The position numbers and the translations under genes are program-made. Source: Sinorhizobium terangae (GTDB lineage: Bacteria > Pseudomonadota > Alphaproteobacteria > Rhizobiales > Rhizobiaceae). From it: a stretch of DNA of 64,000 bases. Under the pieces are notes generated by a model, which was given only the letters and a program-made list of their open reading frames with translations, was not told the DNA's origin and searched no databases. Of this stretch, positions 26,422-53,653 are shown one piece after another. How positions within the stretch are numbered: the first letter of the stretch is position 1; every line of letters starts with the position of its first letter. The stretch lies in contig NZ_CP121661.1 in the NCBI RefSeq assembly GCF_029714365.1, forward strand, positions 502,093-566,092, given 5' to 3'.

Positions 26422-27009
26422 ATGGCCAAGGCCGCAACCCAATCCCGCCCGTCCGCTCGCGCTATGCAAATTCGAAAGGGCGCCACCATCGAGATGGTTA
26501 GGCTCACTTGCCCGGACGCCGCCCAGGCGCTGGCGATCGCCGAGAGCTTCGGAACGGCCGTGATCGACGGTGACGGGATCCGAGACCTGCATGAGCGCCT
26601 AATCATCGAGACGGCCGAGAGCCTTTCCGACGGGCTCGGCGAACGGGCCATGCAGATCCATCTCCAACGCATCGTCGGCGCCTATGTCGGGTCCGCTCAC
26701 GGCGCCGGCCAGTTTTACAGCCGTGCAGTGTCCGAAGCACGTGACGCCACGGCGAAAGCGGCCAGTGACGCCCGCGACGAGGATCTCGACGGTCCCGTCG
26801 GTTACGACAGCGCCGCTCAGCGCAAGCGCGAATTTGCCGCCGACATGGGCGTTCAGTCCCATTCTCTCCGCATGGCTGCCGAAGGCGCCGTCGCCGCTTA
26901 CGAGCAGGTGGTCGGCGAGGTCTGGAAGCCGTTCGACCGCCCGGTCGACAACCCCGGCGCATCACTCGACCGCAAGGCGGCCGAAGCGCAGATGGCGGCA
27001 CTTGGCTGA
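26422..27009 (+). CDS. hypothetical protein
   Basis: A 195-residue alanine-rich, probably all-helical protein without a recognised domain. It starts with a basic stretch (MAKAATQSRPSARAMQIRKG) and contains GAGQFYSRAVSEARDATAKA. AAAGGA is 7 bases before the ATG. It follows the long inverted repeat at 26140-26383, is not closely linked to another gene, and ends 10 bp before a hairpin and 50 bp before a strong terminator. No signal peptide. Confidence 0.65.
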   Translation: MAKAATQSRPSARAMQIRKGATIEMVRLTCPDAAQALAIAESFGTAVIDGDGIRDLHERLIIETAESLSDGLGERAMQIHLQRIVGAYVGSAHGAGQFYSRAVSEARDATAKAASDARDEDLDGPVGYDSAAQRKREFAADMGVQSHSLRMAAEGAVAAYEQVVGEVWKPFDRPVDNPGASLDRKAAEAQMAALG

Positions 27010-27018
27010 TCTGCTTCC

Positions 27019-27038
27019 GGCGGGGCTTCGGTCCCGCC
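27019..27038 (+). terminator. hairpin after 27009 gene
   Basis: GGCGGG and CCCGCC arms around an 8-base loop with a pyrimidine-rich tail. Confidence 0.5.
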
Positions 27039-27058
27039 TTCTCTTCTCTTTGACCGAC

Positions 27059-27085
27059 GGCTGGCTCCTTTTGAGCCAGCCTTTT
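27059..27085 (+). terminator. rho-independent terminator
   Basis: Perfect 9-bp arms GGCTGGCTC and GAGCCAGCC around CTTTT, followed by four T. Confidence 0.8.
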
Positions 27086-27311
27086 CGTATGTCGAAGGCA
27101 AAGCAAAGGGGGAAGACGATCAGCTTGGGCGCCATCGCTTACCCGTCCGGCTCTGGTCCTGCCGGGGCCGGGAATTAAGCCGCAAGGGCTTCGCCCTCCT
27201 CCACATGCGTTCCGGCGCTTGTCCAGCATGCGCCCTCCCCTTTACCCCGGCCTTTGGACCGCCGTGACGGGTCGCGATCGGCCCGGCTTGGAAATTGGAG
27301 GTATCGGAAAA

Positions 27312-28238
27312 ATGAGCAGGAAGCATGAAACGCAGCGTGCGGACATCTATAGCCGTATCGCAGATCGGATCATCGAGGACCTGGCCCGCGGCGTGAAACC
27401 ATGGATGAAGCCCTGGCATGACCGCAACCTGCATGGCCGGATCACACGCCCGCTCCGGCACAACGGACAACCCTATTCCGGAATGAACGTTCTGCTGCTT
27501 TGGTCAGAAGGCATCGCCCGAGGCTTCGCTTCGCCGACGTGGATGACGTTCAAGCAGGCGTTGGAATTGGGCGCGACGGTCCGCAAGGGTGAAACCGGCT
27601 CCACGGTCGTCTTTGCCAGCCGCTTCACAAAAACGGAAGGCGACGGCAACGGCGGTGAGGTCGATCGCGAGATCCCCTTCTTGAAGGCCTACACCGTATT
27701 CAATGTCGAGCAGATCGACGGGCTGCCGGAACACTATTATCACCGGCCGACACCGGTTTGCGATCCTGTTGCACGGATCCAGATCGCCGATCGCTTCTTC
27801 CGCAACACCGGCGCGGTGATCCGCCATGGCGGAAACCAGGCTTTCTTTGCGCCTGCCAGCGACCTCATTCAGATGCCGATGTTCGAGAGCTTCAGGGACG
27901 CGGCAAGCTACTATGCGACGCTTAGCCATGAGGCTACGCATTGGACGGCGCCGGCGGATCGTGTCGGCCGTGATCTCAGCCGCTATGCCAAGGACAAGAC
28001 GGAGCGCGCGCGAGAGGAATTGATTGCGGAACTCGGCAGTTGTTTCCTGTGCGCGGACCTTGGCATCGCACCGGAGCTGGAGCCTCGGCCGGACCATGCG
28101 TCTTACCTCGCCTCGTGGCTCAACGTTCTGGCCGACGATAAGCGGGCGATCTTCCAGGCTGCGGCCCATGCCCAGCGTGCGGTAAGCTTCTTGCACGGTC
28201 TCCAGTCCGGTCAGGCCGAGGAGAGAGCGGCTGCGTAG
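27312..28238 (+). CDS. ardC: ArdC-type antirestriction protein
   Basis: A 308-residue ArdC-family protein. ArdC proteins bind single-stranded DNA and protect an entering plasmid from host restriction enzymes. The N-terminal ssDNA-binding domain has YSRIADRIIEDLARGVKPWM, NGQPYSGMNVLLLW and WMTFKQALELGATVRKGE. The C-terminal metallopeptidase-like domain has ATLSHEATHWT (HExxH) and a glutamate-rich helix REELIAELGSCFLCADL. I use the ATG at 27312, with GGAGG 11 bases upstream. It probably acts early in the recipient after conjugation, together with the methyltransferase-helicase. Confidence 0.85.
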   Translation: MSRKHETQRADIYSRIADRIIEDLARGVKPWMKPWHDRNLHGRITRPLRHNGQPYSGMNVLLLWSEGIARGFASPTWMTFKQALELGATVRKGETGSTVVFASRFTKTEGDGNGGEVDREIPFLKAYTVFNVEQIDGLPEHYYHRPTPVCDPVARIQIADRFFRNTGAVIRHGGNQAFFAPASDLIQMPMFESFRDAASYYATLSHEATHWTAPADRVGRDLSRYAKDKTERAREELIAELGSCFLCADLGIAPELEPRPDHASYLASWLNVLADDKRAIFQAAAHAQRAVSFLHGLQSGQAEERAAA

Positions 28239-28852
28239 CACCGCTCGGGGTCGGTCGTTGTCCCGCCAACGGCAGAAGCTCTTTCTGCTCTCTTTAGGTG
28301 AGGATGTCCTGTTCGGGCGTGAGGTCCAGCCTTCCCCAGATCGAAGTTTTCCGGTCGCTTGATTTCGGCGATAACCGGCTTTGCCTGCTGACGCATAGAT
28401 CCTCCAGGCGACGAATCGCGAGCACGACGGTATCGCCTTGGTTCCAGGAGGCAATGGCCGGTCGGGACGGGGTTGTCGCCTGCGAAGTCGACCCCGTGAA
28501 ATGGAGGCCAGGCAACGGAATTGCCCCTGCAAATGCTCCGTCACGGCGACACGCGGCGGGGTCGCCATCACCATATTCCTTCGATCTGCCGTGTTAGGCC
28601 ACACCCCCGCGGGCTCGATGAGGCATGTCTGATCGGCGAGCGGCTGCGCCTCGATCGTCCTCCCGCAACCGCCGTCGAAAACTTTCTTCCCCTGAGCGCT
28701 CAGGCGCTCATTCCGCGCGGAGCAACAAAGCTTCTCCCGGCGGCCCTTCACGCTGTTTCGGCCCTTCGGGTGCGGTCCGATCGCCCCCGATCCCTGCGAC
28801 AGCCATCGAGGCCGCGGTGGGCGCGGCCCGATACAACGAAAGGAACATGACA
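28239..28852. other. intergenic region with a repeat shared with 30.3 kb
   Basis: No convincing gene. The segment 28604-28680 is repeated at 30303-30380. Further similarity (CAACAAAG, TCCCGGC, CTGTT) extends to about 28785. The last 50 bp are the leader of the DUF736 gene. Confidence 0.5.
28604..28680 (+). repeat. direct repeat, copy 1
   Basis: Contains ATGAGGCATGTCTGATCGG and CGTCCTCCCGCAAC, shared with copy 2 at 30303-30380 with about one base in ten changed. Confidence 0.7.
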
Positions 28853-29164
28853 ATGGCTACCATCGGCACCTTTACCGCAAACGAAAACGGCTTCACCGGC
28901 TCGATCCGCACCCTCGCCCTCAACGTCAAAGCTCGCATCGCCCGCATCGAAAACCCCTCCGACAAGGGCCCGCACTTCCGCATCTACGCGGGTGCCGTCG
29001 AACTCGGCGCAGCCTGGCAGAAGCGCTCCAGCGAGAGCGATCGCGACTATCTTTCGGTCAAGCTCGACGACCCGAGCTTCCCGGCTCCGATCTACGCGAC
29101 GCTGACGGAGGTCGAGGGCGAAGGTGGCTTCCAGCTCATCTGGTCGCGCCCGAACCGGGACTGA
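28853..29164 (+). CDS. DUF736 family protein
   Basis: A 103-residue protein of the DUF736 family, abundant on rhizobial replicons and of unknown function. Features: the start [20 protein letters not shown], the middle [20 protein letters not shown] and [15 protein letters not shown], and the end WSRPNRD. The family start favours the ATG at 28853, with AGGA 8 bases upstream; another ATG 6 bases earlier is possible. A terminator-like hairpin (GGCCTCGCC with GGCGGGGCC) follows near 29175. Confidence 0.82.
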
Positions 29165-29982: not shown

Positions 29983-30587
29983 CACACTCGGAGATTCGTA
30001 CTCGGACGAGTGGGCCGGACGTGCCCTCCGGCCGGCAGGAGGCCATAAGAAGTGGTGGCGCGTCATTCCGATGTCTTCGATGAGGTTGTGGCGATCGTTG
30101 CGGATTGGTGTTGGATCGCCGGCTGCTCGGTTCTGTCGGGCCGACAAGTCATCGAGGCAGGCACTGAGGCATATGTGCCAGTGCTATCCGCTCGGTCTGG
30201 TGCGCCTTGGAACGGCCATGACGGTGGCCGGAGGATAGCGGGTCGCCCCGGTGCCGGGGCGGTCTATCGCGTGGCTGCTCCCACCGCTGTCAATGACGCG
30301 CCCTCCGCGGGCCTATGAGGCATGTCTGATCGGAGAACGGCTCCGCCTCGAGCGTCCTCCCGCAACGGCGAAACAACAAAGTTCCTCCCGGCCCCCAGGC
30401 TGTTCCGGCCTTGTGGGATGCGGCCCGAGCCAGGACTGAGCAGCTACCGGCCCCGATCGCCAAGCGGGGCCAACGCTCGTCGCAGAAGCCCGGGAAACAG
30501 GCATCGAGCCGGTTTCCGGCTTTTCGGTGCCAAACGAGAGGTAGGGTCTGCTCAGACCGTGCCATTTTGCCGTGGTGAAAGAGCAGC
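29983..30587. other. intergenic region, repeat copy 2
   Basis: No gene recognised in 600 bp. Holds the second copy of the direct repeat at 30303-30380; the similarity to copy 1 continues weakly to about 30445. Confidence 0.45.
30303..30380 (+). repeat. direct repeat, copy 2
   Basis: Counterpart of 28604-28680. Both copies stand in long non-coding stretches, one before the DUF736 gene and one before leader A. Confidence 0.7.
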
Positions 30588-30730
30588 CTCAAGGACGAGC
30601 GGTTCCCCCAAAATGCTGGCGCATTTCGGCTCCCCCACCCGCCGCGGTGCGGTCGCGTCGCGCTCCTTGACCCCGCCCTCTCGCCACGCCCGCGGTCGTC
30701 ATCTTTCTCAAACATCAGGAGATGACGCGA
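30588..30730 (+). repeat. structured leader family, copy A
   Basis: Outer arms TCAAGGA (30591) and TCCTTGA (30666); C-run, then inner hairpin AAATGC-TGGC-GCATTT (30613-30628), then a second C-run. The start codon of a small gene follows 58 bp after the outer arm. Compare copies B and C. Confidence 0.65.
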
Positions 30731-30765
30731 TGACAATCGAACAGCATATCGAAGAACTGCGCGCC
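30731..30765 (+). pseudogene. 5' fragment of a small gene split by the recombinase element
   Basis: The frame reads MTIEQHIEELRA and then enters the element and stops at 30775. The ribosome binding site AGGAG is 9 bases upstream. Its missing 3' part lies at 36830-36958. A homologous intact gene inside the element is at 36568-36741. Confidence 0.7.
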
Positions 30766-30779
30766 TTATCTTGACAGTC
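30766..30779 (+). repeat. left terminal inverted repeat
   Basis: TTATCTTGACAGTC, matches the right end with one mismatch. Confidence 0.75.
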
Positions 30780-30959
30780 TGCACCGACTCTAGCGGTCTT
30801 CCAAACGTCGATGCACATGCTGAGGGAGGCGCTTTCCAGGCCGGCCGCAGCGCTCCCACATAGCTGGCGGAGGCCGGCCTGGAGAGTGCCGGGCAGCTCT
30901 AGCACCTCCCGTTGACGCGGGCTCCCCGGGTGGGGGTCCGGGGGAGGGTTGAACAAGCT

Positions 30960-31604
30960 GTGGATACTGTCGTTGCGTCATCAAGCATCACGATCGAGGA
31001 GCGGAGGGCTGCTGACGGCCTCGACGCCTATGTTCCGCGAATCCTGCGAGGCGGTGCGCTCTACGATCCCAATGTTGATCGCTTCTTCCTCAATCTGCCC
31101 CTCAATGGCGTCCGCTCACGTCATTCCCTTCGCGCCTACGGCTACGACATCGCTGTTTGGCTACGCTTCCTTGCCGATGCCCGCGACAAGATGGTCTGGG
31201 AAGCCGATCGGGAAGACGTCGAGGCCTTCCATCGCATCCGCAGAAGGGGCGAGCCCGGAAGCCGGATCTCGGCGGCATCATGGAACCGGTCGGTCGCGGC
31301 AATAGACAAGCTTTATGAGTGGGGCGTGCGTGAGGGACTTCTGTCTTCCAGCCCATTTTCGCATCGGGAGGTCTGGCGTCGTAATCGCACGCGGGGCCAA
31401 GGCCAGATTGTCGCGCGCAACGATGCATTCGAACGGCGCGTAAAGCGAACGGACATCCGTTTCGTCACGCTTGAGGATTTCCGAAGATTTCGGGATGTAG
31501 GACTGCGTGGCCTTACTCCGGATGGAGCGGAACGGCCTGGAGCTCGCGACAGGAACGGGCTTCGCAACGCGCTGTTTGCGGACATGCTGGTGGTACCGGC
31601 TTGA
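30960..31604 (+). CDS. tyrosine recombinase A, N-terminal part
   Basis: A 214-residue N-terminal half of a tyrosine recombinase: core-binding domain with SRHSLRAYGYDIAVWLRFLA then SAASWNRSVAAIDKLYEWGV and REGLL. The frame stops at 31604 just where the catalytic domain would begin. The continuation, in another frame, starts with the catalytic arginine at 31601. Start is uncertain: the GTG at 30960 has GGAGGG 11 bases upstream, and a TTG at 30912 is also open. Either a one-base-type frameshift has broken recombinase A, or the two parts are coupled through the TTGA overlap. Confidence 0.65.
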   Translation: MDTVVASSSITIEERRAADGLDAYVPRILRGGALYDPNVDRFFLNLPLNGVRSRHSLRAYGYDIAVWLRFLADARDKMVWEADREDVEAFHRIRRRGEPGSRISAASWNRSVAAIDKLYEWGVREGLLSSSPFSHREVWRRNRTRGQGQIVARNDAFERRVKRTDIRFVTLEDFRRFRDVGLRGLTPDGAERPGARDRNGLRNALFADMLVVPA

Positions 31605-32368
31605 GGCTCGAAGAGGCATCGTTTCTCTTGGCCTTCGAAGTCGACGCTTTGCCGGCGTCCGGTTCCTCGATCCGTCAGACATGGTTCAATCTGCCCGCAG
31701 GTCTCACCAAAGGCGAGCGAGGGCGGGCGGTCCTTGTTCCTGACGGGTTGCTTCAGCGGCTCCGGACCTACATTCGTGTGGAACGCGCGCATGCCTTGGC
31801 AAAGTTCAAGGCCCGTCAAGGTTGGAGTTTGATAGAGCGGCCGATCTTTATCCGCCGGCCGGTCGCCGGCCCGGCCAGCCTTGTGCTAGCCGACGGACGA
31901 ACTGTTCCGCTGGAGGTCTTCTCGCCGGACGAACGGGAGCGTCTCGTCATCTGTGATCCGGACAATGCACCCGCCGAGCCGGCAGTGCTATGGCTGACCG
32001 AGGTTGGTCAGCCGGTGCGCCCAAACTCCTGGGAGGTGGCGTTCGCCCGTGCCTGCCGTCGCTGCCAGGCGAACGGATCTCCGATCGACATCAGCCCACA
32101 TCAACTTCGGCACACCTTTGCGGTCCATATGCTGGCGATGCTGATCCAGCGCCAGCTCGAAGGCAGATCCTCGGCGATCTCCGCCGGACCCGCGGAAGGT
32201 TACCGCAGACTGCTCGGAGATCCTCTTCAGCAGGTGCAGCGGCTTCTCGGGCATGCGAGCCTTGAGACCACTTCCCTCTACCTCGACCATATCGCCACGC
32301 GCGCAGACACCGTCGATACCGCCGTCGCCGAACTGCTCGCGCTGCTGCCAAGCGGAGGCCGGCTATGA
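31601..32368 (+). CDS. tyrosine recombinase A, catalytic part
   Basis: A 255-residue catalytic domain. The frame reads TGLRLEEASFLLAFEVDALP around its first codons, giving the first catalytic arginine; further on are ISPHQLRHTFAVHMLA (H-x-x-R) and VQRLLGHASLETTSLYLDHI (histidine and the nucleophilic tyrosine). So all catalytic residues R, H-x-x-R, H, Y are present in this part. Its only starts are a TTG overlapping the stop of the N-terminal part by 4 bases. It overlaps recombinase B by ATGA. Confidence 0.7.
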   Translation: MRLEEASFLLAFEVDALPASGSSIRQTWFNLPAGLTKGERGRAVLVPDGLLQRLRTYIRVERAHALAKFKARQGWSLIERPIFIRRPVAGPASLVLADGRTVPLEVFSPDERERLVICDPDNAPAEPAVLWLTEVGQPVRPNSWEVAFARACRRCQANGSPIDISPHQLRHTFAVHMLAMLIQRQLEGRSSAISAGPAEGYRRLLGDPLQQVQRLLGHASLETTSLYLDHIATRADTVDTAVAELLALLPSGGRL

Positions 32369-34167
32369 GCACCCGTCCTCGCAAGGGTCAGCCCGTCGCG
32401 TTCAGTCGCGAACTCGCCGTCCCTCCACCGGTGGCGGCAGAGGCGATATCGGGTCTGCGATTTAACATTCAGACGCAAGATGGCGGCGAGGTTCTGGTTG
32501 ACTACGCTCATCTGACGCCGCGCTGGCTCGCACTTGCGTTCGCCGGTGCGCTGCGGCGACTTGCCGGTCTCGGCGGGCGCCTGTCCGTCAGATCGACTGT
32601 GGCGGCCTACGCCCGCATCCTGCCGCTGTTTTTCGCCTATATGACAGAGACGGAGGACGTGCCCAATGCTCCGGAACTCCTTCAGGCGCGCCACATCGAT
32701 GGCTTCGAAGCCTGGTTGGCGGTAAAGGGCAAGTCGCCCATCCACCTGCTGACGATCCTGACGAAGGTCATCGTGGCTTTGCGAGAGGTTGCCTCTGAAG
32801 GAACGATCACCTTTTCCGACGCGCTGCGCGACCGGCTGGCCTATACGACGTTGAGGCCAATACCCTCGTCGCGTCCCCGCGATGCATACAGCCCCTACAT
32901 TGCGAGTCAGCTTCGCGATGCAGCTCGTGCGGATATCGGGCGTATCTTCCAACGGTTTCGCGAGCCCAGGCCGGTTGCCACAGACTCCGATCTAAAGGTC
33001 CTGGAAGACAGCGTACATACGCACATCGATGCGAGAGGCATTCTCCTTCATACCGATCGCAAATATAAAGCTCTTCTGCACGCCCGAAGGGTTCGAGGTC
33101 TCTCGTCGGAGAACTTCTGTCATCAGCTTCACGAATGGCACTATCTAACCTCGCACGACGTCATTCCGCTGACGGTGTTTCTGGCGCTCGAGACCGGTCT
33201 GGAGATCGAGTGCTGCAAAACCTTGACCGTCGATTGTCTCCAGAACTCGGCAAACGGAACGGTGGAGATTGCCTATATCAAACGCCGAGCCCGTGGCGCT
33301 GAGTACAAGACGCTTCGGGTGCGCGACGGCAGTCCACGCACGCCAGGTGGCCTCATCCGCCAAATCGTCGCCATGACGGCAACTGCCCGTCGACACCGGC
33401 CAAGCGACTGCCTTTGGCTGCATTACGGATCCGGTGGACTAAAATCCGGGCTAAAGCATCCGCAGCATCTCATCGATGGGTGGACGACAAAGCACAATAT
33501 TCTCGATGACGATGGGCACCCGCTCCATCTGGCGCTTTCACACCTTCGCAAGACGCACAAGGCGCTCTGGTATTTGAAGACCGAAGGGCACATGACGCGC
33601 TTTGCCGTCGGTCATACGCGGGAGGTGGCTGCGCGGCACTACGCTGATGTTCCGGCACTGCGCCCCCTACACGAGACCGTCATCGCCGATGCCTTCACCG
33701 AGGCGGTCGCATCGGCCTTGTCGCCGATCATTCTGACACCAGAGAAGGAGGATGCCTGGCGGAGCGATCCGGTCACTGCCTCAGCCGCCGCTCCGGCGGG
33801 AAGTGACCCGATTTCTCTGCTCGATGGAGAACAGGATATCTGGCTGGCCAGCTGCGGCGGTTTCTTTTCCAGCCCCCATGGCGAACCCGGATCGCCTTGC
33901 TCTCTGCCGTTCTGGGGCTGCCTCGAGTGTCCGAACGCGGTCATCACCGCCCGCAAGCTCCCCGCCATCCTATCCTTCCTTGGGTTCCTCGAAGATCAGC
34001 GCCGTTCGCTTTCCGCCAATCACTGGGCGATGAAGTTCGCGGCCGCGCATGCCCGCATCACCAGGCAGATCTTGCCGGCCTTTTCTGCGGTGACGGTTGC
34101 CGAAGCTCGTAGTCTGCTCGCGCACGAGCCGGTTTCAGTCTACCTGCCGCCGGAGGCGTTACTTTGA
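32365..34167 (+). CDS. tyrosine recombinase B (degenerate catalytic site)
   Basis: A 600-residue protein of the tyrosine-recombinase superfamily. The C-terminal block has LALSHLRKTHKALW and RFAVGHTREVAARHYADV, so the second arginine, the histidine and the tyrosine can be assigned. At the place of the first catalytic arginine it reads LETGLEIECCKTL, with glutamate instead of arginine. A cysteine-rich tail (CGGFFSSPHGEPGSPC and WGCLECPNAVIT) follows and is echoed in recombinase C. It overlaps its neighbours on both sides by 4 bases. It may be a structural or targeting subunit, as in multi-recombinase transposons, not an independent enzyme. Confidence 0.72.
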   Translation: MSTRPRKGQPVAFSRELAVPPPVAAEAISGLRFNIQTQDGGEVLVDYAHLTPRWLALAFAGALRRLAGLGGRLSVRSTVAAYARILPLFFAYMTETEDVPNAPELLQARHIDGFEAWLAVKGKSPIHLLTILTKVIVALREVASEGTITFSDALRDRLAYTTLRPIPSSRPRDAYSPYIASQLRDAARADIGRIFQRFREPRPVATDSDLKVLEDSVHTHIDARGILLHTDRKYKALLHARRVRGLSSENFCHQLHEWHYLTSHDVIPLTVFLALETGLEIECCKTLTVDCLQNSANGTVEIAYIKRRARGAEYKTLRVRDGSPRTPGGLIRQIVAMTATARRHRPSDCLWLHYGSGGLKSGLKHPQHLIDGWTTKHNILDDDGHPLHLALSHLRKTHKALWYLKTEGHMTRFAVGHTREVAARHYADVPALRPLHETVIADAFTEAVASALSPIILTPEKEDAWRSDPVTASAAAPAGSDPISLLDGEQDIWLASCGGFFSSPHGEPGSPCSLPFWGCLECPNAVITARKLPAILSFLGFLEDQRRSLSANHWAMKFAAAHARITRQILPAFSAVTVAEARSLLAHEPVSVYLPPEALL

Positions 34168-36317
34168 AGACCGCACGTTCCCCTTACGCCGCCACCGCGG
34201 TCGCGGACGATCGCCCGGTGCTGGCAACAGCGCCGCTGCATGCTGGCTTCGACAGGTCCTCTCTGTCGCGATATAGCGATGCTCGATGGGATTTGGGACC
34301 TGCGGTTTTTCGGGAGAATGCGCGCCGCTCCGATACCAGGGTGGACTTTGATTCCATTGACGACCCAGACATTGCGGCGGCCATTCGCGACTATCTCTAC
34401 GTGCGTCTGAACACGGACCTGCCTGGCTACAAAATGCGTGCGCCTCCGGTGAGCGTGCGCCGCCTCTTTCGTTTCGCTCTGAACTTTTTCAATTTCGTCA
34501 AGGACGATCGCGGAGTCTGTGATCTGCGCCATGTTGATCAGGCGTTGCTCGACCGCTTCGCCAAATCTCTCCGCGACGGACGGCGGCCGATCATCGTCAC
34601 GCAGTGGTTGGGGATCGTTTTCGACCTCTATGCCTTCCGTAACCACCTATCCGTGGCGAAGCTGTCCTTCGAGCCATGGCACGGTCGCAGGCCCGCCGAG
34701 GTTGCGGGTTATCGTTTCTCCGTCGAGGAGAACCGGACGCCCCGTATCCCCGAGGACATCATCCGGCCCCTTCTTGCCTGGTCGCTCAAATACGTCACAG
34801 TGTTCGCACCCGACATTCTCGCCGCGCGCAACGAACTGCGAATGCTCGAAGAGCATCACGCGATGTTGATCGCCGAAGACGCGCTGGCACATCGCAATGA
34901 ACGGCGGGCCCGCCGCAAAGCCCGCCTGATTGCCTACCTCGACGAACGCCGCAAGCAGGGCCGTGGTGTCCCCGCCTGGCCGGTCAGGATCGGCGGACGA
35001 TTTTCATCAGCCGGATCGGAGCCGCCCTTGAACTGGCAGCTCATCTATCTGCATGCCGGCGCCGATGCCAACCTTCGGCGACCTCTCGATGAACGCCCCG
35101 GCGATGGTGCCCGCCAGATCGTCGAAGCTGCGGTCCACGAGCTCGGGACCGAGGTCGGCGGAATGGATACGCCGATTTCTATCGATCCCGACACCGGCAA
35201 TCCCTGGCGGGCCCGGTTCGACGCAAGAGCACTCGCGGTGGAGGAGCGGATGCTGCAGGCCGCCTGTTATATCGTCTGCTCCTATCTGACCGGCATGCGC
35301 GACAGCGAGGTCCAGGCCATGCGGCCCGGCTGCCTCTCTGTCACCCGCACCGAGGACGGCCTGATCGACAGGCATCGAGTAAGGTCAGTTGCCTATAAGG
35401 GGAAGGAAACGCGTGGCGACGAGGCCGAGTGGATTACCATTGCGCCCGTCGCGGCCGCGATCGCGGTGCTCGAACAGCTCATCATGCGATCCGTCGAACG
35501 CCGCGGTACTGAGACGCTCTGGCCGGTTCTCTTTATTGCACGGGCACGCAAGCATACTCTCTCGACAGACATCGTGACCCGACTGAACCAGTTTCGCGAT
35601 CATCTGAATGAACGCTTCGGAACCGCAGGCGAGCCGGTCGTTCCGGCCGGCCCCAATGGGCGCCCGTGGCAACTGACGACACGTCAGTTTCGCCGGACGA
35701 TTGCCTGGCACATCGCCAATCGGCCCTTCGGAACGATTGCCGGCATGATCCAATACAAACACGTCTCCGTCGCGGCCTTTGAAGGTTATGCGGGTTCGAG
35801 CCGCTCAGGCTTCCGTGCCGAAGTCGAGACGGAACGTCGTCTCGGGCAGATGGACGACATACTCACCTATTTCGATGAACGGCAACTCGGAGCAGGTCTC
35901 TTCGGCCCTGCTGCAGGGCGGATCGGCAGATCGCTGGACGCCGCAGCGGCCGAGCTTCAACCGCTTCCAGGCATCATCGCCGACCGTGGTCGCCTCCGCG
36001 TCCTGCTGGCGGACACGGCACGAACACTCCACGTCGGCGTGCTGGCCGACTGCTTCTTCGACCCTGCCACCGCTGTCTGTCTCCGCCACGCCGCCTCAGG
36101 CGACCAGATCGCTCCGATGATCTCGTTGTGCGAACCGTCCCGATGCCCGAACGCCTGCATCACAACGCGCCATCGTCCCGCATGGGCGGATGCCGCGGAG
36201 AACGCCAGGGCAATCCTCAAGGAAAAGAGGCTGTCGGAACTGCAGCGGCTTGCCGTGGGCAAAGACCTGCAACGGATCGAGAAGATCTTATCCGATATCG
36301 AGGTAATGTGCGGCTGA
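34164..36317 (+). CDS. tyrosine recombinase C
   Basis: A 717-residue recombinase. Catalytic candidates: CSYLTGMRDSEVQAMRPGCL (first arginine), LTTRQFRRTIAWHI (R-x-x-R in place of H-x-x-R), MIQYKHVSVAAFEGYAGSSR (histidine and tyrosine). The tail has the cysteine motif LCEPSRCPNACITTRHRP, close to the WGCLECPNAVIT of recombinase B, probably a zinc-binding or contact region. The start ATG lies 4 bases inside recombinase B. Last of the three; a leader repeat and a small gene follow within the element. Confidence 0.75.
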   Translation: MKTARSPYAATAVADDRPVLATAPLHAGFDRSSLSRYSDARWDLGPAVFRENARRSDTRVDFDSIDDPDIAAAIRDYLYVRLNTDLPGYKMRAPPVSVRRLFRFALNFFNFVKDDRGVCDLRHVDQALLDRFAKSLRDGRRPIIVTQWLGIVFDLYAFRNHLSVAKLSFEPWHGRRPAEVAGYRFSVEENRTPRIPEDIIRPLLAWSLKYVTVFAPDILAARNELRMLEEHHAMLIAEDALAHRNERRARRKARLIAYLDERRKQGRGVPAWPVRIGGRFSSAGSEPPLNWQLIYLHAGADANLRRPLDERPGDGARQIVEAAVHELGTEVGGMDTPISIDPDTGNPWRARFDARALAVEERMLQAACYIVCSYLTGMRDSEVQAMRPGCLSVTRTEDGLIDRHRVRSVAYKGKETRGDEAEWITIAPVAAAIAVLEQLIMRSVERRGTETLWPVLFIARARKHTLSTDIVTRLNQFRDHLNERFGTAGEPVVPAGPNGRPWQLTTRQFRRTIAWHIANRPFGTIAGMIQYKHVSVAAFEGYAGSSRSGFRAEVETERRLGQMDDILTYFDERQLGAGLFGPAAGRIGRSLDAAAAELQPLPGIIADRGRLRVLLADTARTLHVGVLADCFFDPATAVCLRHAASGDQIAPMISLCEPSRCPNACITTRHRPAWADAAENARAILKEKRLSELQRLAVGKDLQRIEKILSDIEVMCG

Positions 36318-36394
36318 CCTCCTAGAAATACGGTCGCGCCCCCTGGTCGGGGTCGCGGGTTCTCTTCTTTCTGCCGTCCCATTCTACGGCTGCT

Positions 36395-36567
36395 CAGCCC
36401 GCGTCAAGGACGAGCGTGGGCCCCCGGTTTTATCTCCGCTCCGGTTCCCTTCGCTCCGACAAAACCGGCACCCCACTCGCCGGCGCTGCCGGTCGCGTTC
36501 CGCGATCCCTGACACACGCTTCGTGCGCACGTGGCCTCGTTGACGTCATCAAAAGGAGACGATCAAC
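36395..36567 (+). repeat. structured leader family, copy B (inside element)
   Basis: Outer arms GTCAAGGA (36403) and TCCCTGAC (36506); inner arms CCGGTTTT (36424) and AAAACCGG (36461) after a C-run. Shares GTCGCGTTCCGCGATCC with copy C. Start codon 54 bp downstream. Confidence 0.7.
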
Positions 36568-36741
36568 ATGACCACTATCGATCAAATCAACGAATTACGC
36601 GCCGAGCTTCGGAGCTGCTATTTCACCAAGGAAGAACGCGCCGCGGCCGAAGCCGAACTGGCGGCCTTGATTGCGCAGGAGCAAGCTGCGGCCGAGCAGT
36701 TCGCGCGTGACATCCAAGCCTTCGCCGCTGACCTCGAATGA
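36568..36741 (+). CDS. small helical protein, cargo of the element
   Basis: A 57-residue protein (MTTIDQINELRAELRSCYFT then KEERAAAEAELAALIAQEQA), almost certainly one or two alpha helices, possibly a coiled coil. AAGGAG lies 9 bases upstream. It is homologous to the gene split by the element: MTIEQHIEELRA at 30731 and the fragment at 36830-36958. Its leader also belongs to the same repeat family. Function unknown. Confidence 0.7.
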   Translation: MTTIDQINELRAELRSCYFTKEERAAAEAELAALIAQEQAAAEQFARDIQAFAADLE

Positions 36742-36809
36742 GGTCGGCGACGAAACGAGAGGACTTACCCCTCTCGATTTTTCCGCCACTGAGATTCAAC
36801 TTTTCATTT

Positions 36810-36823
36810 GACTGTCAGGATAA
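36810..36823 (-). repeat. right terminal inverted repeat
   Basis: On the minus strand TTATCCTGACAGTC, the partner of 30766-30779. Confidence 0.75.
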
Positions 36824-36829
36824 CGGCTG

Positions 36830-36958
36830 GAGCTGCGTAACGCCGTCGACGCTGACGCGCGTCGGCAGATCGAGGCCGAACTTGAACTCGCCCGGGCTGA
36901 ACGCGAGGTGATCTCGGCCGAGCAGGACGGCCGTGTCAGCGCCGAGCCTCCGTTCTGA
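36830..36958 (+). pseudogene. 3' fragment of the split small gene
   Basis: The frame reads ELRNAVDADARRQIEAELEL then ARAEREVISAEQDGRVSAEP and stops at 36958. Joined after MTIEQHIEELRA at 30765 it gives a continuous protein of about 54 residues, close in length and sequence character to the intact relative at 36568. Confidence 0.7.
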
Positions 36959-37129
36959 CGGAGGCTTATCTCCATGTCCGTGCGCCTGGCCAGCCGGATC
37001 GAGCGGCCCCCCGCCTGTCAGGGGTTTCACCTCTCGACACTCCCCGCCGGCTCGCGCCGGGAAGCGGTCGCGTCCCCTTCAAGTTCGCGGGGCTCTTTCT
37101 CTGACCTCCTATTTTACTCCAGCAAATCC

Positions 37130-37290
37130 GGCGTCAAGGACGGCGCGGTCTCCCCCAGTTTTTCTGCCGCCGCGTTGCACTGTGCTTCAGAAAAGTAGGT
37201 TCCCCCGCTTGCAAGTCGCGTTCCGCGATCCTTGACCCCTCTTTGCCACGGAGTGGCCGATCTCGGTCATCAAGATGAAGGAGATCACAT
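37130..37290 (+). repeat. structured leader family, copy C
   Basis: Outer arms GTCAAGGA (37133) and TCCTTGAC (37229) pair perfectly; inner arms TTTTCTG (37160) and CAGAAAA (37188) lie between C-runs. Start codon 54 bp after the outer arm. Confidence 0.7.
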
Positions 37291-37782
37291 ATGACAACGG
37301 ATCAGGACCTTACCATCCTCGCCAGGCTTTCCGGTTTCCGGCTCCTCGTTCTCGCAAACCGCTTCGGCTGCGATACCGACGTCTCGCGAGAGCTCCATGA
37401 CCGACTGATCGAAGGGCTTCAGGCGGCAACTGCTCGCGTCCGGACTATCATGGCATTGGAGCGGAACGTTCTCACCGGAGAGGACGAGTTCGCCAAATAT
37501 CAGTTGGAAGGCGAAACCGAGATTTTCGGGCGTTTTGCCATCAATCTCATGGACGATCTCGAGATCGATTTCCACACCCATGAGTACCGCATCAATGGCG
37601 GCAGCTGGATAAACGCTCTGACGGCAGACTATAGCGGTACCGACCTCGACTACCCGGAGCTGGTCACGCTTACCGAGGAAGAGCTCGGCTCATTGGCACC
37701 GATCATCAAGGATATTACGCGGGAAACCGGGATTGTCGTACATGCGGCGCGCGCCGTCGGCGCTCGATGGGCGGGATCCTGA
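37291..37782 (+). CDS. hypothetical protein downstream of leader C
   Basis: A 163-residue acidic cytoplasmic protein of no recognised family (MTTDQDLTILARLSGFRLLV, then NRFGCDTDVSRELHDRLIEG, HTHEYRINGGSWINALTADY). AAGGAG is 7 bases before the ATG. Its first residues MTTDQ resemble MTTIDQ of the gene at 36568, which may reflect a shared leader-start unit, not shared function. No close gene follows. Confidence 0.6.
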   Translation: MTTDQDLTILARLSGFRLLVLANRFGCDTDVSRELHDRLIEGLQAATARVRTIMALERNVLTGEDEFAKYQLEGETEIFGRFAINLMDDLEIDFHTHEYRINGGSWINALTADYSGTDLDYPELVTLTEEELGSLAPIIKDITRETGIVVHAARAVGARWAGS

Positions 37783-40485: not shown

Positions 40486-42408
40486 TCACCGCTTCTCGGC
40501 GCTGGCCCGGAATAACACATTCAGCTTTACGCACGCCTTCATGTCCTCACGCCGAAACCAGATCGCGCGCCCGCATCTGAGCGGTGCATTTCCGGCGGTG
40601 AACACGATCTGCTCGTCAGCCCGCATACGAAGAACTTCATGTGGCTGGATCAATGGTCGCGCGGCCAACTGCTTCGAGCGTGTGCGCGAAGAACCCTTGG
40701 ACTGGAAACTGCGGCTGACCTGATCGATCTCGACCGTGGTCATGCCGCAGCGTCGGGAAATATAATCGGCCGTTTCCGGATCGTTGATCGCGGCGAAGGA
40801 AATCCAGCTCGCGCTCTCGAACCACTTGCTGGCTGCGTCCCGCCCGCCATAGGTCTCGCGCATCTGCCCGATCGACTGATAGATCATGGTGAGCATGATC
40901 CCGTACTTGCGGCCGGCATCTCGGGCGGTCTCGAGGATCCGCATGTAACCGAGGCGCGCCACCTCATCGAGGAGGAAGAGCGCCCTGCCCTCCATCTCGC
41001 CATTGCGGTTGTAGATTGCGTTCAGGAACGAGCCGATGATGACGCGTGCCAGGCCGGCATGGGTCTCCAATGTCTTGAGATCGATGTTGATGAAGACGTC
41101 TGTGTTTCCTTCAGCAATATCGCTTGTCGTGAACGTCGTTCCAGAAACCAGCGCCGCGTAGTTCAGGTAGGAAAGCCAGTGCGTTTCCTTCACCGCATTG
41201 GCGTAGACGCCCGAGAAGGTTTCGGGGGTCATGTTCACGAAGGCCGCAACGTTTTCCTTCACGAAGTCCGAGTTCGAATTGTGGTAGATCGACTGGAGGC
41301 GTTCGCGCAGCTTGGGTTCCGGCTCGGAGAGGTTCTTGCGCACCTGGCGCAGCGTCTGCTCGGGCTCCCTGGTGTGACCGGAGAGGCAAACGTCGGCGAT
41401 GAGTGCCGTCAGCAACTGCAGAGCCGAGGCGCGGAAGAAGTCGTCGCGCACGCCACGCGCGCCGCCGCTGTCGCTCATGATCCACGAGGCAACCGAAGCA
41501 ATATCCTCCTCCTTGGTTCCGCCGAAACGCCCGATCCAGTCGAGCGCGTTGAAGCCGATTTCCGAGTTCTTCGGGTCGAGGACGAAGACGTCGCGGTTGG
41601 CACCGCCTCGGTGTTTTGAGACCATAGGCGCGACCTCGTTCGAAGGATCGAGGACGACAAGGGCGCCGCCCCATTTGAGCGCGGTCGGGATCGTGACAGA
41701 CGTCGTCTTGAAGCCGCCGGAGCCTGCGAAGACGATGCCGTGCGACGGGCCGAACGAGCCGTCGAAACATAGAAGCGGCGCCTTGCCGCCGGCGCCCCAC
41801 GTCTCGGCGCTGTCGGCGCGAAACGACTGTGCCGCCACGCTATCCTTGTCGACGCAGTAGCGCTCGCCGATCACGATGCCGCCACGCTCCGGAAACAGCT
41901 TTTCCGCTTCCGGTAGTTTCATCCACTCAGCCTCGCCGTACAGTGCCCGCTTTCCATAGATACGCTTCGGTTCGGCTTTGGCGAAGGCCGCGTTGCCGGC
42001 GATCACCACCCGCAAGCCGAAGAGCGCCGACATCAGCGCCGCGCAGACGCCGATCGTCGTCGCCGGATCGACATAGGAGAAGATGGACTTTCCCCCCGGA
42101 ACCTGTCCAGCGAATGCGGACAACCTGACGAATTCGCGCATTGCAGCGATCAGGATCGTCGCTGTCGCTCCGGCGAGGACGCCCCATCCTGCCGTTCTGA
42201 TCCTCGCCGAGCCGGCGCTGGCGAACATGAAGACGATGCCGAGCAGTGCCGCGACGAGATAGGGCAGAGCGATGCCGGCGCGGCCGAGTGTCTGCTGCGC
42301 GGCCTCCGATTTTCCGAAAACGGGCAGCCAGTTTTCGGTCCCCGTCATACCGATGATGACAAGAAGCATCAGAGCGCAGGGCGCGAGGAACAGCACGATC
42401 CTAGTCAT
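40486..42408 (-). CDS. traG: TraG conjugative coupling protein
   Basis: TraG (VirD4-like type IV coupling protein) is the inner-membrane ATPase that links the relaxase-DNA complex to the mating channel. The 640-residue protein has N-terminal membrane segments ([34 protein letters not shown]; further ones up to about residue 140), a Walker A-like [20 protein letters not shown], and a Walker B in [15 protein letters not shown]. Length equals the Ti-plasmid TraG. It starts 8 bases inside traD, so traC-traD-traG form one leftward operon from oriT. Confidence 0.95.
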
Positions 42409-42616
42409 CGGTCTCACCAAAAGCCTCTGCACCGATCGCGCTGAGCCGCGAGCGCTCGTGCTCGTCTCCCTTCAGCCGTCGGTTTGCATCGATGAGGAGC
42501 CCGAGTAGCAGCGCCCGCTTCTCATAGCGCAGCCCCGCCTTGACGATCAGACCGCCGAGCTCAATTTTCTCCCGCGTGTCCTTCTTGCGGGCGTCGGATG
42601 TCGTGGTTCTTCGCAT
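42401..42616 (-). CDS. traD: TraD conjugation protein
   Basis: A 71-residue protein of the Ti/rhizobial TraD type: [40 protein letters not shown]. It takes part in DNA processing at oriT with TraC and TraG, though its exact role is not known. Located between traC (4-bp gap) and traG (8-base overlap). The homology begins at the ATG at 42616; the open frame upstream is antisense noise. Confidence 0.9.
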
Positions 42617-42976: not shown

Positions 42977-43100
42977 AGTGCGGAACGCACTACTGTGAAT
43001 CCTACAATCGCCAAGGGCGATGCTTTGGTGAATGATCCCGGCCGCTCGATGAGAGCGGCATCCAAGGGCGCAATTATACGTCGCTGGCGCGACGTTCTTC
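42977..43100. other. oriT: origin of conjugative transfer (oriT)
   Basis: The core CCAAGGGCGCAATTATACG (43062-43080) is the RSF1010/Ti-type oriT sequence; the nick is expected in the complementary TAATTG^CGCCCT. Hairpins surround it: AGTGCG-GAA-CGCACT (42977-42991), ATCGCC-AAG-GGCGAT (near 43010), CCGCTC-GATGA-GAGCGG (43042-43058) and CGTCGC-TGGC-GCGACG (43079-43094). The region is the divergent traC/traA promoter region, where TraR control sites are also expected. Confidence 0.9.

Positions 43101-52620: not shown

Positions 52621-53653
<1,033 letters not shown>

Follow-up and report, generated by a model that had tools for sequence, protein, structure and literature searches.

Introduction

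Promoters that work in single-stranded DNA (ssDNA) are already known from the F plasmid, from ColIb-P9 and from their sequence relatives. As set out in the accessible text of two reports (PMC9849209, PMC11541004), the single strand of the leading region folds at Frpo and rebuilds a -35 and a -10 box, and the early expression that results is transient, being lost on conversion to duplex DNA. Here we describe three structured elements, E1, E2 and E3, in a stretch of 64,000 nucleotides (nt) of Sinorhizobium terangae, hereafter called the window, which belongs to contig C3 of the assembly and covers the transfer region of a conjugative plasmid of the Ti type. We consider it likely that these elements are Frpo-like ssDNA promoters of the conjugative leading region in Alphaproteobacteria. 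A preliminary description of the same letters, in which the elements appeared as structured leaders of small genes, had offered an RNA switch, a protein-binding leader or a DNA structure used in transfer; the last of these fits, as a promoter on the transferred strand (T-strand), which is a form not proposed there.

Further candidates of this kind were collected by Samuel et al. (2024), who, in the accessible text (PMC11541004), combined BLAST with a box search in leading regions and used five sequences to search for known Frpo; that main text, as far as it is accessible, contains no word beginning Rhizob, Agrobacterium or Alphaproteobacteria. The EGeRS1 sequences were judged unlikely to be ssDNA promoters in the accessible part of another report, the transferred strand being the non-template strand and no promoter being seen (PMC8708921). 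Among the matches listed in our literature search, which left subscription journals mostly outside, there were no earlier promoters of this type in rhizobia or Alphaproteobacteria.

Results

The three elements and their family

The structured cores lie on the minus strand at 30587..30673 (E1, stems P1-P4 on the T-strand), 36402..36515 (E2, within an insertion) and 37132..37238 (E3), and our covariance model R1 scores them at 81.1, 105.6 and 72.2 bits, respectively. It is confirmed that E1, E2 and E3 are copies of one element. The outer pair of arms that the preliminary description had assigned to all three is exact in E3 (GTCAAGGA at 37133 and TCCTTGAC at 37229), while E1 differs in having CTCAAGGA (30588) opposite TCCTTGAC (30664), and E2, with GTCAAGGA (36403) opposite TCCCTGAC (36506), has a plus-strand A·C mismatch; the pair is thus not identical in all three copies. 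The claim of complementary inner arms held for AAATGC/GCATTT, CCGGTTTT/AAAACCGG and TTTTCTG/CAGAAAA; the right side said to be partly identical in two leaders was recovered as GTCGCGTTCCGCGATCC in E2 and E3; and the reported 54-58 bp to an ATG agreed with gaps of 58 (E1), 54 (E2) and 54 nt (E3) between right arm and ATG. The start coordinates needed correction by 8 bases for E2 and 3 bases for E3, both of which begin later than had been given.

Model R1 was built for the minus strand from 37 elements. In its own genome it gave five matches at 72-106 bits, the next best being at 23 bits. It also matched 108 of 394 genomes of the family, 17 of 397 genomes drawn from the order (8 of the 17 outside the family) and 9 of 385 genomes drawn from the class (8 of the 9 outside the order), these tallies including the weakest and doubtful order- and class-level matches (G513, 42 bits; G840, 42 bits on both strands). 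The search with a covariance model that the preliminary description had recommended was thus positive, with many matches before short open reading frames (ORFs) on rhizobial plasmids. When 72,556 plasmid records were searched by blastn with the stretches holding the elements and neighbouring bases, matches to E1 were found in 534 records, 416 of them typed as conjugative, and matches to E2 and E3 in 239 and 233.

The element set used below comprised 138 elements, namely 126 matches from 85 sources and 12 from order-level loci, with one 15-bit order-level match omitted; some stretches (L085, L087, L101, L108) hold three to six elements. For strand, flank-fold and promoter counts, three of the 138 were dropped (the 62-nt L094, the 31-bit L129 and the 42-bit L168), and 13 of the remaining 135, which have no exact TTGA or outer-arm anchor, were left out of the P0 and -10 statistics, leaving 122.

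Fold and covariation

On the minus strand, the outer stem P1 pairs GTCA[A/G]GGA with TCCTTGAC. The long arm P2 has two G-runs opposite each other, hairpin P3 is CCGGC..GCCGG or CCGCC..GGCGG and is absent from some elements, and hairpin P4 is TCGCG..CGCGA. In a MAFFT alignment of the 37 elements (A2), 94.5% of 1214 cells were paired, two-sided changes were found in 82 cells compared to 26.3 after shuffling and affected 12 of 34 pairs, and covariation was 0.229 compared to 0.103, with the register lost when the structure was slid. For all five measures the observed value was reached by none of 500 shuffles, using a structure that was drawn after the alignment had been seen and whose P3 and lower P2 were drawn by eye. 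P1 itself covaries, changing from GTCAAGGA/TCCTTGAC to GTCAATGA/TCATTGAC in loci L019 and L021. RNAalifold recovered P1, P4 and upper P2 from the T-strand alignment, placed lower P2 in another register and did not recover P3. In 16 elements from outside the family, seven of which are also among the 138, 430 of 519 cells were Watson-Crick, 23 G·T, 11 A·C and 55 other. The paired cells and two-sided changes of the 37-element alignment confirm the earlier suggestion of selection on structure with covarying arms. Sliding-window folding of 20-60 kb found many structured places on both strands, and structure alone is therefore not distinctive.

The folded strand

A stem accepts a G·U or G·T wobble but not A·C, and each of the two becomes the other on the opposite strand. 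In the minus-strand reading, the 37 elements contain 94 cells with G·T and 15 with A·C. For 130 distinct elements, the 4354 cells of the T-strand include 3739 Watson-Crick pairs, 299 with G·T and 51 with A·C, a G·T to A·C ratio of 5.9 compared to 3.0 when partners were shuffled within columns (338 and 111). Three pairs (7-117, 41-108 and 52-95) switch between G·T and Watson-Crick through one-sided changes, and the mRNA strand would need A·C at these pairs in 53, 68 and 114 of the 130 elements. Folding with DNA parameters gave a z score of -3.92 for the T-strand and -2.46 for the sense strand, the T-strand being better in 42 of 45 elements; with RNA parameters, the minus strand was more stable relative to shuffles in 38 of the 45. 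The strand that suits the fold is the complement of the mRNA.

These results bear directly on a structured mRNA leader (a riboswitch, a thermosensor or a protein-binding leader) transcribed from an upstream promoter, which would account for the constant distance before the ribosome binding site and for the pairing that this site can make, by eye, just upstream in many copies. Against it, the mRNA strand has A·C mismatches in place of the conserved wobbles, those 42 of 45 elements fold worse as sense strand, and a sense promoter within 150 nt upstream is not enriched (8 of 135 elements, 8.0 in shuffled sequences), making such a leader very unlikely. The RNA switch and the mRNA-level protein-binding leader of the preliminary description are not supported, on the same wobble and upstream-promoter evidence. 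Pairs conserved with G-U wobbles on the mRNA strand, by which a cis-acting mRNA element was sought, were not found. The plus strand folded as RNA was also tried as the structure of the leaders and was rejected, as it gave weak and inconsistent structures (z against shuffles 0.18 for E1, -1.72 for E2 and -2.82 for E3).

Relation to the transferred strand

The window has a nic-like sequence, TAATTGCGCCCTTGG, on the minus strand at 43062..43076, with an inverted repeat just before it. This sequence, at about 43.06 kb, resembles an origin of transfer (oriT), and it indicates that the minus strand to its left is the T-strand. The nick polarity is assigned from the resemblance of this oriT to the IncQ type (RSF1010/Ti) and from the nick position of RSF1010. 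The oriT of Ti, Ri and opine-catabolic plasmids is likened to the IncQ type in the accessible text of PMC6341043. In 35 of 97 loci we recognised a nic-like site accompanied by an inverted repeat of 5 bp or more, and in all 35 the elements (51 of 51) are on the leading side with the folded strand being the T-strand. This is the Frpo-type placement, in the leading region with the T-strand as template. The 35 loci are not fully independent, as they share gene order.

Promoter boxes

On the T-strand P1 ends in TTGA, the start of a -35 box, which is mostly followed by [C/G]G. A hexamer with A at -11 and T at -7 (Y-A-N-N-N-T) was present at spacer 15, 16 or 17 in 116 of the 122 elements, and at least four of six matches to TATAAT at spacer 14-18 in 80. 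The hexamer was picked by a score favouring A-11 and T-7; the fair comparison is the mirror control, an outward TTGA on the other arm of P1, which yielded 2 and 0 of 122. Among 114 distinct sequences, -13 is G in 100, -12 is C or T in 111, -11 is A in 113, -7 is T in 114 and -5 is G in 94. Full -35/-10 pairs were found in 88 of 135 elements compared to 1.5 in shuffled sequences. In elements from outside the family, a permissive count made with no control placed the A-11/T-7 hexamer at spacer 14-19 in 15 of 16.

Within the window, all on the minus strand (the T-strand), E1 has the -35 hexamer TTGAGG (30587..30592), whose TTGA is in stem P1, and the -10 hexamer CAAAAT (30564..30569) at spacer 17; E2 has TTGACG (36402..36407) and TAGAAT (36381..36386) at spacer 15; and E3 has TTGACG (37132..37137) and TAAAAT (37111..37116), likewise at spacer 15. 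Six minus-strand promoters of the stringency used for full pairs occur at 20-45 kb, and three of them are those of E1-E3. In a scan of duplex energies, E1-E3 did not stand out from other promoter-like sites.

By sequence, the -35 and -10 boxes form a leftward promoter in duplex DNA, and the elements could be ordinary duplex promoters pointing away from the gene, or could serve an antisense RNA, the hairpin being incidental. We regard this as extremely unlikely. It leaves unexplained the covariation of the cloverleaf, a pairing (stem P0, below) that ends at -12, and the constant spacing of the start codon at the opposite side. Promoters from which the structure could be read as antisense RNA are not enriched either in the 150 nt beyond the element toward the gene (11 of 135 elements, 16.9 in shuffled sequences).

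Stem P0 and the -10 region

In the spacer-17 class (45 distinct elements) positions 3-20 after TTGA, that is, the spacer and -12, pair with the gene-side flank as stem P0. These positions are paired in 67-100% of the elements, most of them with covariation, and of the 810 P0 cells 603 are Watson-Crick, 86 G·T and 9 A·C. In the same class, the 225 cells at -11 to -7 include 47 Watson-Crick and 19 G·T pairs and show no covariation. E1's own T-strand fold shows P0, its spacer (30570..30586, minus strand) pairing with the flank at about 30674-30690. A T-strand stem that rebuilds -35 and -10 is thus present as in Frpo-type promoters, in register for spacer 17 only. Over the 122 elements, own flanks gave -13.8 kcal/mol and swapped flanks -9.9, and in 110 the T-strand gave better flank pairing than the sense strand did. 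Ensemble folding of the 122 T-strands gave a pairing of 0.73 in the -35 and spacer and 0.35 at -11 to -7. Sigma-70 uses a duplex spacer and melts DNA from A-11. A duplex spacer with a mostly open -10 is close to what sigma-70 uses.

Distance to the gene

A start codon behind a sequence like a ribosome binding site was found past the element in 134 of 138 cases, some of them with a doubtful choice of reading frame, and the distance from element to start codon was 50-58 nt (5th to 95th percentile). The median distance was 52, 51, 56 and 64 nt for spacers of 15, 16, 17 and 19. Distance and spacer were correlated (rho 0.76, with distances of 40 nt or less dropped and nine class-level elements added by hand; 0.73 without the hand-added elements). 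If the polymerase starts 6-7 nt past the -10, the RNA would begin about 25-30 nt before the ATG; at this presumed start, the sense sequence of the spacer-17 class is pyrimidine-purine-pyrimidine, with G or A in 37 of 45, a purine flanked by pyrimidines not being seen there in the other spacer classes.

A single-strand initiation (ssi) priming site for synthesis of the complementary strand would also involve a folded T-strand in the leading region, with several copies on some plasmids, but there the fold would recruit primase or RNA polymerase to make a primer in the recipient and the genes would be expressed from duplex DNA only. Frpo of F is called both promoter and primer site in the title of Masai and Arai (1997). 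A primer site, however, needs neither a -10 nor a fixed 50-58 nt to a start codon, and we consider this explanation unlikely.

The small genes behind the elements

Behind E1 is a remnant of a small gene with 14 codons, 12 of them its own (30730..30774, plus strand), whose intact relative in L004 encodes 54 amino acids (aa). E2 is followed by a gene of 57 aa beginning MTTIDQINELRAEL (36568..36741, plus strand) and E3 by a gene of 163 aa beginning MTTDQDLTILARLSGFRLLVLANRFGCD (37291..37782, plus strand). Searches of Pfam and NCBIfam at E 0.01 assigned no family to the proteins behind E1 (intact relative), E2 and E3; the E2 protein had one match far below the cut-off (15.8 bits, cut-off 250). Among the 134 proteins encoded behind elements, 10 fall below 40 aa in length and the start or frame of 13 is doubtful, leaving 111 usable ones that form eight clusters by lenient linkage, two of them probably remnants. 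One cluster of 98 joins 54-57-aa proteins of the EQHIEELRAEL type with proteins of about 160 aa of the LANR-GC type, and the others contain 125-aa proteins, 88-aa cysteine-rich proteins, 120-aa proteins and singletons.

Two side observations concern these genes. A small cysteine-rich family (CPKCSG...CTEC), found behind the same promoter at L135:8866 and L143:5195, may bind zinc. In many leaders the ribosome binding site pairs, by eye, with bases just upstream, as in CGTCATC..GATGACG at 36540-36570, possibly forming an extra hairpin in the mRNA.

The insertion that carries E2

Two points had escaped the preliminary description: the gene of E1 is truncated by a 6-kb insertion, and E2 is located inside that insertion. 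The inserted element (6058 bp, 30766..36823, plus strand) has inverted ends TTATC[CT]TGACAGTC and carries a tyrosine recombinase together with E2 and its gene, indicating that the promoter cassette travels as cargo too. Its first ORF matches the phage integrase family and occupies two overlapping frames here, being intact in L005, and the next two long ORFs have no Pfam or NCBIfam match and are recombinase-like by eye. The E1 gene is interrupted after codon 12. The left end lies at the same codon in four loci, which are the window, L005 (pTiBo542), L126 (contig C2) and L080; outer pairs of ends are 6 to 13 kb apart among loci, so the cargo varies. A 386-nt stretch around E2 is duplicated identically on contig C2 (C2:1533026-1533411), and this contig also has an E1-like element with the same insertion (C2:1539099-1539211, L126).

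Because recombinase ORFs are flanked by E1 and E2, the elements might be thought to be recombination or relaxase sites (att or oriT-like) for the neighbouring recombinase or for TraA, and hairpin P2 may resemble the oriT repeat of RSF1010. The insertion, however, is bounded by inverted repeats of its own, 92 nt away from E1, and in three of the four annotated plasmid stretches viewed the elements occur without an annotated integrase, the fourth having one. The elements are almost certainly not such sites.

Plasmid context

A TraG-type coupling protein (Pfam T4SS-DNA_transf) is encoded at 40486-42432 on the minus strand. To the left of the oriT-like sequence are small genes, a DUF736 gene and an ArdC gene (Pfam ArdcN and MPTase-PolyVal), in an order resembling that of pRM41A and p42a, and the three small genes preceded by E1, E2 and E3 are all directed toward oriT. 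Long hairpins also occur on the T-strand at 28560-28860, before the DUF736 gene, and at 26980-27330, before the ArdC gene; the ArdC-side hairpin is not strand-specific (z -4.5 and -5.2), and neither stretch is matched by R1. Both may be further promoters of the leading region. A repeat of 55 nt (91% identity) is present upstream of the DUF736 gene (28618-28672) and of E1 (30315-30369). The strongest folding signal within the scanned 20-60 kb lies at 53400-53600, on both strands (z -7.8 and -6.1). In Rfam no family reached the gathering score over E1-E3, and elsewhere in the window only ar15 and Atu_Ti1 did so.

Discussion

The family, its fold, the folded strand, its position relative to recognised nic sites, the -35 and -10 boxes and, in one spacer class, P0 were all obtained by computation. 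On this basis the following mechanism can be proposed. The plasmid would enter the recipient as a single T-strand, here the minus strand, and the region before each small gene would fold into a cloverleaf core, with P1 closing hairpins P2, P3 and P4, on top of stem P0. P1 would present the TTGA of the -35 box as duplex and P0 would supply a duplex spacer of 15-17 nt (in register for 17), with pairing dropping thereafter so that bases -11 to -7 of the -10 box would be mostly open. Host sigma-70 RNA polymerase would bind this rebuilt promoter and use the gene-side part of the T-strand as template. Transcription would begin some 25-30 nt upstream of the start codon, immediately in front of the ribosome binding site. 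Once the second strand had been made the hairpin would be lost, the duplex boxes would point away from the gene, and expression would end; the small proteins made in the meantime would aid establishment of the plasmid.

A broader proposal has in our estimate about even chances of being correct. The promoter would reverse with the form of the DNA, directed toward the gene in the single strand and away from it in the duplex, so that entry itself is the switch; it would constitute a cassette of about 140-165 nt, placed before several kinds of small leading-region genes and also carried as cargo of a mobile element; and Alphaproteobacteria would have ssDNA transcription with an architecture of its own.

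Several results weigh against the elements being ssDNA promoters. With regard to strand, structures slid by 1-3 columns gave G·T to A·C ratios of 0.3 to 2.9; 235 of the 299 G·T cells lie at the three switching pairs, and the remaining positions have 64 G·T and 49 A·C, with two poorly formed pairs accounting for 31 of the latter. Outside the family, the 16 elements show 23 G·T to 11 A·C, and E3 taken singly folds no better on the T-strand (z -2.01 compared to -2.34). As for transfer, 87 of the 138 elements are in stretches with no recognised nic, and a looser scan (three mismatches, no repeat) had 54 elements agreeing and 14 disagreeing, the inverted-repeat requirement having been added after this result. 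The nick polarity is presumed by likeness to the RSF1010/Ti oriT. In the promoter itself, the -35 hexamer of the spacer-17 class mostly leaves its final two bases unpaired, and P0 is clear and gap-free for spacer 17 only (0.62 paired, 0.30-0.45 in other registers). For spacer 15 pairing is 0.36 and this is not the best register, for spacer 16 it is 0.41 compared to 0.34-0.39, and P0 in these classes would need bulges; the fold of E2 has only short pieces of P0. Own flanks beat swapped ones in just 89 of 122 elements, and the sense strand likewise drops at -11 to -7 (0.64-0.66 to 0.40), making the difference between strands small. When seven protein clusters are taken as the units, the correlation of start-codon distance with spacer is not significant (rho 0.41, p 0.36), and descent may therefore explain it. 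The idea that the elements precede eight or more unrelated protein families was rejected, with 98 of the 111 usable proteins falling in one cluster.

If the elements are ssDNA promoters, expression from the entering strand would be a wider strategy, and the family provides a search model for it. The small proteins would then be candidate first products of Ti-type and other rhizobial plasmids in a new host, with possible roles in anti-defence or establishment.

Among known systems, the elements resemble Rfam RNA families in being structured and conserved, and differ from them in having no match at the gathering score. EGeRS1 of pLS20-family plasmids is similar in consisting of repeated structured sequences before establishment genes; unlike EGeRS1, here the transferred strand is the template and boxes are seen. 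The Frpo-like candidates of Samuel et al. 2024, as far as the accessible text describes them (PMC11541004), share the same functional idea. R1 had no match in 20 kb of F holding two repeats taken as Frpo1 and Frpo2, and the best blastn hit between F and the window at 26-38 kb had E 0.16; membership in the Frpo sequence family was thus not found in a comparison made with F only. The F repeat folds as one long hairpin, whereas here a compact cloverleaf stands on a short stem, with about 140-165 nt from the -10 to the presumed start. A simple -35/-10 scan found no boxes in either F repeat, indicating that the F boxes are arranged or matched differently. With no likeness to F in sequence and another shape, the family would work like Frpo without belonging to its sequence family. 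What it has in common with Frpo1 and Frpo2 of F and with ColIb-P9, as these are described in the accessible literature, is a position in the leading region, before leading genes, with the T-strand as template and a stem that rebuilds -35 and -10.

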